DNA from: Oscillospiraceae bacterium
GTDB lineage: Bacteria; Bacillota; Clostridia; Oscillospirales; Ruminococcaceae
Direction of reading: 5' to 3'
DNA length: 64,000 nt
Assembly (NCBI GenBank): GCA_017461565.1
Contig: JAFTXQ010000004.1
Location: 186,001-250,000 of the forward strand
A program made the translations under genes and the position numbers. Below the pieces are notes generated by a model that was given only the letters and a program-made list of their open reading frames with translations, ran no database searches and had not been told where the DNA came from. Of this stretch, positions 46,390 through 49,634 are shown in pieces (within the stretch, counting starts at the first letter, position 1; each line of letters starts with the position of its first letter).

Positions 46390-46456
46390 GACATTGTGTT
46401 TTGTTTGGTTTGCTTGACAGCCTGAAAGGCATTGAGCTGTTATGACCCTATAAGTG

Positions 46457-46502
46457 AATATGCACCTCAGAAGCTACTGACTTCTGAGGTGCATATTTTT
46501 GT
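46457..46502 (+). terminator. Terminator of marR-ABC operon
   Basis: A perfect 17-bp stem (starting AATATGCACCTC) with 7-nt loop, followed by TTTTTG. Confidence 0.92.
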
Positions 46503-46515
46503 GTATAGGATCGTC

Positions 46516-46562
46516 ATTAAAAACAGGAATGAGTCCGTTTTGCATTGAACTCATTCCTGTTT
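46516..46562 (-). terminator. Terminator of the kinase operon
   Basis: 14-bp arms AAACAGGAATGAGT/ACTCATTCCTGTTT; the minus strand continues TTTTTAAT. Confidence 0.8.
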
Positions 46563-46578
46563 GCATATCGTTTGGCTG

Positions 46579-47859
46579 TTATTCGGTGTATTCCTTTATC
46601 TCCAGCATTGCGCCGTTGATCGAAAGTCTTGTGCCTGTGAAAATAGGGGCTGCGGAATCGGGCGCTATCTGCTTTTCCTGTCCGTTAGGCAGAGTGCACT
46701 GCCATGTATCGGCGGTGTGGTTCTTGAGTCCCCATAGAGAGGGATTGAGCTTGTTGCGGACCACCTCGGCAGTCGCTGCGAGGTCATCGTCGTATATCCT
46801 TGTGCCGTCACAGAGAAGCACACGGCTTTTGCCGTCGGTTAGGCACAGCGGCGGCGCGAAGTGGGTGCCGCAGGGGCAGATAAGCTTTCCGTCCTCGTCC
46901 TTTTCGTAGGACTGCACGAAGCTCTGTCCGCCGCATGGGCAGGCGCAGATGTCGCTGCGAAGTCTTATCAGCAGGTCGAGCCACTGCTTTTCGATAAGTC
47001 GCTTTTCGGGCTGATGGAGACCTGTTGTGAACGAGTAAGTAAACGCTTCACGGATGTATTCGGGCATGATGCGCCAGAATTTGATTATGTTGTTGTGTAC
47101 ACCACGGACGGGACGGTTAGTAGCGTCCTCGGGGTCGTATACGAACATAGGCTCAAAGCCGTAGTGGCGACGTTCTGCCTCCTCGGTAAGGCACACGCTT
47201 TTCAGCACACGACTGCCCTCCAGCGGATCTCCACGAAGGAGCAGGCGAAATAGCAGCACCGCAAGGGAATAACGGTCGGTGAGCTTATCGGGCGCCTTTT
47301 CTCCACGCACTATCTCGGGGGCCATATAGCCTGGCTTTCCGGCTATTCCCAGATGGTCGCCATAAGGGGCAATGTTATCGCAGTCGCATATCTTAACATC
47401 ACCGTCAGTGGGGCGGATAAAGAAGCCGCCGTCGTTAAGATCCTGATAGCTCTTTCCGCTGTTGTGCAGCTCGCGGAACGCCATGGTTATACGGATCGCA
47501 GCATTTACGATGGAGTACAGTCCCGAAAATTTTACCCTTGCATTGAGGATATCCGAAAAGGGCTTGTAGTCAGATGGGATAAGCTCCATAAGAAAGCCGA
47601 AGCCGTCTCGTGTATCCTCGGTCAGCATCAGCGGCATAACAAAGCTGTTGTTTTCTATGCTGCATTCGGTAAGCGATGCAAGGTTCTCACGGAACAGCTC
47701 GGGACGCTTTAGCTTGTTTTTGAAATACATCTTAAGTGCGTATTCCTTATCTCGATATGCGGCACGGTAAACAGTGCCCTGCCCACCCGAGCCCAGGACT
47801 GCTTTTATATGGGCATATCCTCCCAGCTCCAGCGGGATGTTGTCACCGACTTTTATCAT
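46579..47859 (-). CDS. Ser/Thr protein kinase with C-terminal Zn ribbon (TerY-system type)
   Basis: 426 residues. Protein-kinase fold with GSGGQGTVYRA (glycine loop, about 22), Lys in EYALKMY, catalytic Asp in YQDLNDGGFFI (HRD position), DCD in place of DFG, and PGYMAPEIVRG. It is followed by a CPCG...CPCG zinc ribbon and a beta-rich end that may be FHA-like. The ATG at 47859 overlaps the TerY-C stop by one base. Kinases of this shape accompany TerY/PP2C stress modules; here those two partners are missing. Confidence 0.8.
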   Translation of the reverse strand: MIKVGDNIPLELGGYAHIKAVLGSGGQGTVYRAAYRDKEYALKMYFKNKLKRPELFRENLASLTECSIENNSFVMPLMLTEDTRDGFGFLMELIPSDYKPFSDILNARVKFSGLYSIVNAAIRITMAFRELHNSGKSYQDLNDGGFFIRPTDGDVKICDCDNIAPYGDHLGIAGKPGYMAPEIVRGEKAPDKLTDRYSLAVLLFRLLLRGDPLEGSRVLKSVCLTEEAERRHYGFEPMFVYDPEDATNRPVRGVHNNIIKFWRIMPEYIREAFTYSFTTGLHQPEKRLIEKQWLDLLIRLRSDICACPCGGQSFVQSYEKDEDGKLICPCGTHFAPPLCLTDGKSRVLLCDGTRIYDDDLAATAEVVRNKLNPSLWGLKNHTADTWQCTLPNGQEKQIAPDSAAPIFTGTRLSINGAMLEIKEYTE

Positions 47860-48212
47860 CAGAAGCCGCCTCCGGTGATGGAGTCGAATTTCTCTTCGGC
47901 AGCGGTTTCTGCGGAGTTTCCGCACCACTCGCAGACAGTTTCGCTCTCGCCGTTCCAGCAGGTAGTTTTGCCGCAGTCCGCACACTGGAAGAAGCCCTTT
48001 GCTCCGCAGTAAGGGCAGGTCGGATACTCGGTAGTGACATAGATGTTTCCGCTTATTTTGGTATCACCGAACTTTTCACGCTCAGCCGTACCCTCCGACA
48101 CCTTGAATGCCCATGTTGCATACCATGCACCGTCGTCACGCTGCTCGGTACGGATGCCGAAGAGCTTGTGCTCCTGTCTGCATTTTGTGAGAATAACTGC
48201 TGCTGTTAACAT
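47859..48212 (-). CDS. Stand-alone TerY-C zinc-binding domain protein
   Basis: 117 residues resembling the metal-binding C-terminal domain of tellurite-resistance TerY: a beta start (AAVILTKCRQEHKLFGIR), then CPYCGAKGFFQCADCGK and CEWCGN zinc knuckles (about 71-102). The vWA domain normally fused to it is absent. GGAGGT precedes the ATG, 25 nt after the Sel1 gene. It probably bridges the kinase and its substrates. Confidence 0.8.
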   Translation of the reverse strand: MLTAAVILTKCRQEHKLFGIRTEQRDDGAWYATWAFKVSEGTAEREKFGDTKISGNIYVTTEYPTCPYCGAKGFFQCADCGKTTCWNGESETVCEWCGNSAETAAEEKFDSITGGGF

Positions 48213-48237
48213 TGTGCTACCTCCGTTTTATTGTTGT

Positions 48238-49515
48238 TTATTTCATTTTTTCGAGGATCTTTGCTGCCTCGGCATGACCGTTTTCTGCTGCAAGGCGGAA
48301 ATAACGCTGTGCCTCATCTCGGTTTTTCTCGACATAAACGCCTTTCAGATACATTATGCCGAGATTGTATTGTGCTATATCCATGTTCTGTTCTGCTGCA
48401 CGTGTGAACCATGCAAAGGCGGCCGCAGGATTTTTTGCCGTTCCGCTGCCGAGATACAGACACTTTCCGTAGCTGCACTGTGCACGTGCGTGGCCCATTT
48501 CCGCAGCACGCTTATAGAACATTGCTGCGCCTTCATAGTCGTGCTCGGAGAGGCAGCGGCGAGCTGACTGATACAGTTCCTCGCCGTCGTCGGAAAGCGG
48601 CTGTGGTGTTTCAGTGCGCTCTTCCACATACTGCTCGGGTATTATTCCACTGCGCCATTTGGCTGCGATATCAGGATTTTTTGATACATACACGCCGTTC
48701 TCATAACACAGGGCGATAACGTTTATGGCGTCATCATATCCTGCCCTTGCAGCGTCCATGAACCAGTTGAAGGCTGCCTCCTCGTTTCTTTCGCAGAAAA
48801 TGCCCTCTGCAAGGAATTGTGCGGTCATATACTGTGCGGCAGGGACGCCGTTTTCTGCTCCACGCAGGAACCATTCCCATGCCTGCTCAACATCCTGTGC
48901 TCCGCCTCGTCCTTCAAGGCGATAAAAGCCGACATAATACTGAGCCTCGCCGCAGTCCTGCAGTGCCGACTGCTGGAACCAGTATATTGCACGGTCATAA
49001 TCCTTTATTCTGTCGAAATGGCGACCAAGGCTGTATTGTTCTGCGGCGTCCGTGATGTTCTTCTTGCTCTCGGTGACTGAAACGGGTGTTTCGGCAGGGT
49101 GCTTGAACGCTATCTCGCAGCCTAGCGCCTGTCCTATCGCCTCCACTGCGTCAGCGGCGCTTTTGCCTTTAAGACCTACGTCGTCACGAAGTGATCTTAC
49201 GCATCTGGCTGCCGCAGCGCAACGCACCTCGAAAGGCTTTCCGCACACTCCTGCCAGTTTTCTGGCACAGCCATCGTAAAGGGCGACATAGACAAGTCGC
49301 CGCACGGCGGTCTCTTTAGGGAACAGATCGGCTATCAGTGCGTCTGTCTTACGGCGATCCATGAGGACATCCTTGCCGAAACGCTGCACGATATAGCTCA
49401 CTATGCCGCCGATATCACGTATCGGATCGCCCTCGGGTGTATGGACTGTCTTGCAAAATCCGCAGTGATCCTGCATATCAAAGTCGAACTCACGACCGCA
49501 TCTTCCGCACTGCAT
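48238..49515 (-). CDS. Zn-ribbon/Sel1-repeat protein
   Basis: 425 residues. N-terminal zinc ribbon (CGRCGREF, then CGFCKT), an uncharacterised helical domain (about 30-130, with VALYDGCARKLAG), then Sel1/TPR-like repeats in two blocks (about 150-270 and 290-420; AQYYVGFYRLEGRG- and AQYNLGIMYLKGV-type). Such repeats are scaffolds. AAAGGAG precedes the ATG at 49515. First gene of the operon with TerY-C and kinase. Confidence 0.85.
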   Translation of the reverse strand: MQCGRCGREFDFDMQDHCGFCKTVHTPEGDPIRDIGGIVSYIVQRFGKDVLMDRRKTDALIADLFPKETAVRRLVYVALYDGCARKLAGVCGKPFEVRCAAAARCVRSLRDDVGLKGKSAADAVEAIGQALGCEIAFKHPAETPVSVTESKKNITDAAEQYSLGRHFDRIKDYDRAIYWFQQSALQDCGEAQYYVGFYRLEGRGGAQDVEQAWEWFLRGAENGVPAAQYMTAQFLAEGIFCERNEEAAFNWFMDAARAGYDDAINVIALCYENGVYVSKNPDIAAKWRSGIIPEQYVEERTETPQPLSDDGEELYQSARRCLSEHDYEGAAMFYKRAAEMGHARAQCSYGKCLYLGSGTAKNPAAAFAWFTRAAEQNMDIAQYNLGIMYLKGVYVEKNRDEAQRYFRLAAENGHAEAAKILEKMK

Positions 49516-49634
49516 ACGCCTGCTCCTTTCTGTCTGCAATTGTACTTATAATTATTTATATTTTATCACAAACGCAGATATATGTCAATCGAAAGAGTAT
49601 TTGAATTTATTTTTAAGTTTTTTTAAAAAAGCTC

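Follow-up and report, generated by a model that had tools for sequence, protein, structure and literature searches.

A putative two-locus, genus-core variant of a TerY-P-like phosphorylation switch, probably for stress, in an Oscillospiraceae bacterium

We analyzed 64,000 nucleotides of contig JAFTXQ010000004.1 from an Oscillospiraceae bacterium (assembly GCA_017461565.1, positions 186,001 to 250,000 of the forward strand); this whole stretch is called the window, and positions are counted from its first letter. At 46579-49515, on the minus strand, lie three genes in the order Sel1-repeat protein, TerY-C protein, and Ser/Thr kinase:

48238..49515, minus strand: Sel1-repeat scaffold gene (P0003), 425 amino acids (aa); open reading frame (ORF) with a Pfam Sel1 match, AGGAG before the ATG
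47859..48212, minus strand: stand-alone TerY-C gene (P0002), 117 aa; Pfam TerY_C match, GGAGG before the ATG, C-terminal tail GGGF
46579..47859, minus strand: Ser/Thr kinase gene (P0001), 426 aa; kinase domain, zinc ribbon, and C-terminal region

All three proteins exceed curated Pfam cut-offs, and paired cysteine motifs can be read in each of them; the coordinates, domains, and zinc-type motifs given in an earlier sequence-only reading of this DNA were thereby confirmed. That reading also placed the kinase and the TerY-C protein in a TerY-P-like phospho-signaling system, and this assignment holds. TerY-P triads (Anantharaman 2012) are already known: as outlined in PMC11090510, they combine a TerY-like von Willebrand factor A (vWA) protein, a PP2C phosphatase, and a Ser/Thr kinase with a C-terminal zinc ribbon. 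We consider it probable that the window operon and a separate vWA-PP2C locus are the two halves of a five-component TerY-P-like phosphorylation switch, whose role likely lies in stress.

The sequence-only reading had taken the vWA domain and the phosphatase to be missing; instead, the genome encodes both, at a locus of their own. On a Prevotella plasmid, genes for TerY-C, a kinase 38% identical to that of the window, vWA, and PP2C stand side by side, and a search with the plasmid vWA led to a 47%-identical vWA on another contig of our genome (G000:C16) and then to a PP2C. The vWA protein (P0008; VWA, 35.7 bits against a cut-off of 23.8) is encoded directly beside the PP2C protein (P0009; PP2C_2, 114 bits), and inspection by eye found the vWA metal ion-dependent adhesion site and the metal-binding Asp motifs in the C16 proteins. 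Judged from the contig ends, the window operon and the C16 locus are at least ~101 kb apart. As a side observation, a gene for a protein of ~267-287 aa frequently comes after vWA-PP2C (L126, L127, L129, L132, L133, L134, L136, and L137); the two such proteins scanned, from L126 and L132, match the SseB N- and C-terminal domains.

The same genome also has a complete canonical TerY-P triad (G000:C6, L065:6936-13730), followed by TerD- and YceG-domain proteins, and its kinase and vWA are only 25% and 28% identical, over the aligned part, to those of the window/C16 system. Of the 37 genomes of the genus, 35 show a C6-type vWA match that is 28-31% identical to P0008. We compared ORFs of <700 aa from 83 loci of distant kinase relatives with both systems. 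All vWA matches (82/82) and all PP2C matches (72/72) scored higher against the C16 proteins than against the C6 triad, and all kinase matches (85/85) scored higher against the window protein; thus, it is the C16 pair and not the C6 triad that belongs with the window kinase.

Within the genus (37 genomes, including our own), the components are close to universal. The Sel1 protein, TerY-C, and the kinase are each found in 35 genomes, in agreement with the co-conservation that the sequence-only reading had asked of the three genes, and vWA and PP2C are each found in 34. Because the three-gene unit is conserved across the genus, our own genome included, a chance origin is excluded. The kinase is in one piece in 33 genomes (one of them cut at a contig end) and in two pieces in G025 and G033. 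The Sel1 and TerY-C genes were not found in G003 (69% complete) or G006 (90% complete); G006 has no kinase of the window type and G003 has only a 55-residue piece. Identity to the window proteins is 77-97% for TerY-C, 47-84% for Sel1, and, small pieces aside, 67-85% for the kinase; identity to the C16 proteins is 84-97% for vWA, apart from one damaged piece, and 57-77% for PP2C. Some of these matches are pieces at contig ends; of the 34 vWA proteins, four are pieces.

Both halves are present in 33 of the 37 genomes (G033 has only PP2C from the second half), and in no assembly among these 33 are they adjacent. In 29 of the 33 they lie on different contigs, although fragmented assemblies cannot prove distance; in the other four they share a contig, at separations of ~3.6 kb (G024), ~4.3 kb (G009), 27 kb (G034), and 108 kb (G031). 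Formally, this arrangement could mean that the scaffold, TerY-C, and the kinase work alone as a reduced module and that the vWA-PP2C locus serves something else. A distance-matrix test of co-evolution in 25 genomes did not single out cross-locus pairs either (mean partial correlation, 0.20 across the loci versus 0.15 and 0.12 for pairings with members of the canonical triad). We nevertheless regard a self-sufficient three-gene module as quite unlikely, given that all components are kept across the genus, that the two loci lie only a few kilobases apart in G024 and G009, and that vWA, PP2C, and kinase genes are contiguous or linked in the relatives described below.

The order Sel1-TerY-C-kinase is kept in the side-by-side loci, where the stretch allows it to be read, except in G015, whose kinase (L130) is on a different contig from its Sel1-TerY-C pair (L045); the locus may have split once more here, or the assembly may be at fault. 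Downstream of the G015 Sel1-TerY-C pair lies a gene that by eye resembles HSP90. In some species insertions interrupt the operon but leave the order intact, among them a HAD-type hydrolase after TerY-C and, before TerY-C, lipoprotein-like and iron-sulfur membrane proteins (all named by eye).

Relatives outside the genus arrange these genes differently. In a family sample, a kinase of the window type occurs in 31 of 247 genomes (E ≤ 1e-25), 27 of which come from 17 other genera with kinases 34-52% identical to that of the window. We examined loci from 20 of these 27 genomes (14 genera, mostly the better-scoring ones), and in 17 of them genes for a protein with the helical domain of the window scaffold, the kinase, vWA, and PP2C are contiguous, in that order and on one strand. 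One of the 17, L278, has its kinase in two ORFs; of the remaining three loci, two are cut by contig ends and one has the kinase alone. No TerY-C was detected in the 20 loci by the profile used. The kinase is rare in the phylum: of 299 genomes sampled, our own and one other have it at E ≤ 1e-20. Farther away, the 83 distant loci contain, within the stretch examined, vWA in 77, PP2C in 73, a helical-domain protein in 55, and a stand-alone TerY-C in 34. Of the 552 relatives confirmed in the named scan, the best 80 were retained; the top kinase among these 80 is 48% identical to that of the window, compared with at least 67% within the genus (small pieces aside), and none of the 80 appears to belong to the genus.

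These arrangements also bear on two claims of the sequence-only reading. The Sel1 scaffold does not replace vWA and PP2C, since a scaffold gene with this helical domain adjoins kinase, vWA, and PP2C genes in other genera and phyla. Of the phrase "reduced or rewired," the first word does not stand and the second does in part: the locus is split, TerY-C is present, and the repeats differ. The genus of the window differs from most family relatives in carrying Sel1 repeats instead of leucine-rich repeats; in addition, a TerY-C gene separates scaffold and kinase, and vWA-PP2C lies at a different site from scaffold-TerY-C-kinase. From gene anatomy and descent, which the comparison of sequences establishes, the system appears to be an inherited operon, later split, that includes a stand-alone TerY-C. 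In trees, which do not contain the same-family sequences, the genus clades have support of 1.0, and the sister groups differ among kinase, vWA, and PP2C and are weakly supported. Two placements near rpoB may be recorded here: a Ruminococcus flavefaciens metagenome-assembled genome (L215:6995-12502) has a kinase of the window type just upstream of rpoB, without adjoining vWA or PP2C, and the G015 vWA-PP2C pair (L131:5889-11604) is also just upstream of rpoB.

The scaffold protein, whose Sel1 match has an E value of 1.5e-39, reads as three parts:

49453..49509, minus strand: N-terminal zinc ribbon, C3/C6/C18/C21, read from the sequence
49087..49428, minus strand: helical adaptor domain, residues 30-143, by hhalign to the domain from distant kinase loci
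48253..49053, minus strand: Sel1 repeats, approximately residues 155-421 (limits approximate), by Pfam Sel1

By eye, the cysteine pattern of the ribbon is also present in the 25 rows inspected. In a profile-profile comparison (hhalign), residues 30-143 matched the domain built from proteins encoded beside distant kinases with a probability of 98.9 and an E value of 2.8e-17, and on this basis we take the two to be homologous. The domain, predicted to be helical, matches no Pfam family in more than two of the 51 members scanned (50 of the 51 distant domains were included). What follows it varies: among the matches listed for 53 helical proteins, a scan that took in 52 of the 55 distant ones gave LRR_5 in 10, Sel1 in 6 (the window included), WG in 4, MORN in 3, ankyrin in 2, and FGE-sulfatase in 1. 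A cysteine pattern resembling a zinc ribbon precedes the domain in nine distant proteins (one ORF being cut by the locus end) and in 14 of 19 same-family proteins. The latter mostly read as zinc ribbon, helical domain, and BspA-type leucine-rich repeats, and the two that were scanned singly both match LRR_5; the L278 protein differs in having no zinc ribbon.

The TerY-C protein matches TerY_C (PF15616) with 36.6 bits against a cut-off of 28.4, over profile positions 71-121 of 129 only; its Prevotella relative covers positions 42-116.

47889..48032, minus strand: stretch matching the Pfam profile PF15616 TerY_C

Its cysteines are C66/C69/C77/C80/C85/C94/C97, to which C11 and H15, invariant in 30 sequences, can be added, and the C-terminal GGGF is likewise invariant in 30 genus sequences. 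The sequence-only reading had raised the chance that a TerY protein had lost its vWA domain here by local damage. This is rejected: across the genus the gene is a stand-alone one, and a TerY-C without a vWA domain is found in 34 of the 83 distant loci, directly upstream of the kinase in 22 of the 34. Of these distant ORFs, 26 are 118-123 aa long; the others, with the first start taken, are longer. Gly-Gly occurs within the last eight residues of 29 of the 34, the ends often being GGGF or GGGY. PF15616 exceeds its cut-off in 1 of 398 phylum genomes, our own, a count that is a lower bound because the model is weak on this branch; one other phylum genome has a weaker match in a 340-aa frame. A second TerY-C-like match in G015 (E value, 4.6e-4) proved by eye to be a different zinc-ribbon protein.

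The stop codon of TerY-C and the start codon of the kinase share one base in TGATG, an overlap that had been read as the sign of a fixed complex. It is not conserved. Among 33 distinct TerY-C genes (one chance row, the second of L009, excluded), it joins TerY-C to the kinase in 15, and in 6 others the same TGATG couples TerY-C to a different gene, by eye a HAD-type hydrolase in the four of the six whose sequence was inspected. In five species (L032-L036), a gene of 209-211 aa, by eye a HAD-type hydrolase, sits between TerY-C and the kinase and is TGATG-joined to TerY-C.

Two candidate transcription signals flank the operon:

49560..49588, minus strand: promoter-like site TTGACA-17-TAAAAT with TG before the second hexamer; consensus match only, 11 of 12 bases
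46521..46562, minus strand: terminator hairpin followed by a T run, after the kinase; z -5.18, 0 of 200 shuffles as stable

The case for the promoter-like site at 49588-49560 is weakened by the number of such sites across the region (9 observed versus 4.7 expected). The strong hairpin after the kinase, on the other hand, suggests that the transcription unit probably consists of just the three genes. Outside it lie a tRNA-Pro gene and a gene named by eye as ABC-transporter-like. A stem of 18 pairs with a T run at 46456-46498 on the plus strand, adjoining the kinase terminator, is likely the terminator of that upstream plus-strand transporter-like gene.

The kinase matches Pkinase with 62.1 bits against a cut-off of 31.7 and continues beyond the kinase domain:

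46870..46941, minus strand: zinc ribbon C307/C309/C328/C330, cysteines invariant in a nine-sequence alignment
46582..46842, minus strand: region C-terminal to the ribbon, without a convincing Pfam family

The C-terminal region appears beta-rich, and its sole Pfam signal in the window kinase is a weak zinc-finger match (the scan covered 64 of 70 C termini). The kinase had no match at an E value of 1e-5 among 50,697 phage records, and a phage origin was rejected. At the position of the catalytic-loop Asn, assigned by reading of the motif, all 31 distinct genus kinases have Gly, as do 18 of the 20 same-family loci (16 contiguous, two cut by contig ends); Asn is kept in L277 (kinase alone) and L278 (contiguous). 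In the 85 ORFs of distant kinases, Asn stands at this position in 79 and Gly in one (L209); the remaining five could not be matched to the pattern. The substitution is not a result of the locus split, since same-family contiguous loci have it too, and it is probably older than the split. Its fixation in the genus and near fixation in the family, against the prevalence of Asn farther away, would fit a protein in which catalysis has ended and which only binds nucleotide or partners, a reading that is compatible with a phosphorylation switch. We think such a pseudokinase scaffold possible, if somewhat doubtful, as Lys43, Asp140, and Asp159 are invariant in nine aligned kinases and the genome retains the PP2C of the system.

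From the protein classes we infer how the proposed five-component switch would work. The products of the window operon and of the C16 locus would act together, with kinase and PP2C setting opposite phosphorylation states of shared targets. The vWA and TerY-C proteins, both expected to bind metal, may gate the kinase/PP2C pair or hold the complex together, and the scaffold would recruit targets through its repeats and use its helical domain and zinc ribbon to dock on the switch.

What the switch serves is most likely a housekeeping stress response rather than a patchy anti-phage cassette, as nearly every genome of the genus has the genes and they lie on large, presumably chromosomal contigs. 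The TerD genes found beside linked loci also speak for stress: among the matches listed, a neighbor scan of 83 of 145 rows (duplicates among them) gave TerD in 10 of the 83 neighboring proteins, two of which were verified singly. By analogy with Ter systems, the stress would be of the metal, redox, or envelope type. Several observations weigh against the proposed two-locus stress switch: by eye, no TerD gene was recognized in the ORF list for the surroundings of the operon; activity of the kinase is not assured, given that its catalytic Asn is absent; the co-evolution test did not favor cross-locus pairs; and a defense gene adjoins three linked loci. In these three, from records named Prevotella, Bacteroidales, and Porphyromonadaceae, BrxL-type ATPases (BrxL_N plus BrxL_ATPase, with a C-terminal MIT_C phospholipase-D-like domain) are encoded directly upstream of TerY-C and the kinase (L161:4522-6609, L162:4426-6492, L167:4479-6590), pointing to defense there. 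The BrxL neighbors, the copies on plasmids, the exchangeable repeats behind one helical domain in 53 proteins, and the antiphage activity reported for TerY-P-like modules in PMC11090510 would suit an anti-phage or conflict system, that is, a conditional switch whose recognition repeats can be swapped, resembling effector-associated domain (EAD) systems. Near-universality in the genus speaks against this, and in PADLOC the kinase drew only generic kinase matches, and vWA, PP2C, and TerY-C drew none; we therefore hold an anti-phage function in this genus to be unlikely.

Returning to the stress switch, we tentatively suggest, without putting much weight on it, that the helical adaptor defines a modular family in which one kinase/PP2C/vWA/TerY-C switch responds to different inputs as the repeat module behind the adaptor is exchanged. 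In the genus of the window this would have become a fixed, split housekeeping pathway in which a Gly-substituted kinase is regulated by free TerY-C, with its conserved Gly-rich tail, which often ends in an aromatic residue, as a possible gating peptide.

The findings indicate that a TerY-P-like switch carried by a minority of the genomes sampled from the phylum and the family can occur, in split form, in nearly all members of one genus, and that inspection of neighboring genes alone misses half of such a switch. An adaptor domain with no Pfam match brings scaffolds with quite dissimilar repeats to a single kinase-phosphatase core; together with a kinase family that has Gly for the catalytic Asn, it offers handles on what TerY-P-like switches sense and phosphorylate. 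From titles and abstracts, we recognized no description of the split form or of the helical scaffold family among the open-licence papers that text searches listed.

Several known systems resemble the proposed switch in part. In EAD systems, according to PMC7159879 and PMC8195603, a small N-terminal domain recurs in several proteins of a locus, joined to variable modules. An adaptor-type N-terminal domain joined to variable modules is common to both, but the core here is kinase/PP2C/vWA and not MoxR-vWA, and the likeness is one of architecture. The actinobacterial GAP1-N2 association (Kaur 2020, PMC7159879) combines a kinase-zinc ribbon-beta-rich domain protein with PP2C, a stand-alone vWA, and a GTPase; it shares with the window system a kinase with a zinc ribbon and a further C-terminal domain and a PP2C next to a separate vWA. 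No GTPase was noticed at the window operon, although no search aimed at GTPases was made. The antiphage TerY-P-like module (Gao 2020, via PMC11090510) has an OB-fold C-terminal to its kinase. With the TerY-P triad itself the window system shares the same three protein classes, the C-terminal zinc ribbon of the kinase, and the presence of TerD beside some relatives; it differs in being split over two loci and in having a stand-alone TerY-C and a scaffold whose helical domain matches no Pfam family. A vWA and a PP2C do belong to the same system, but at another locus of the same genome, and the three triad genes, which are not adjacent in any of the 33 genus assemblies with both halves, do stand together in 17 of the 20 same-family loci.

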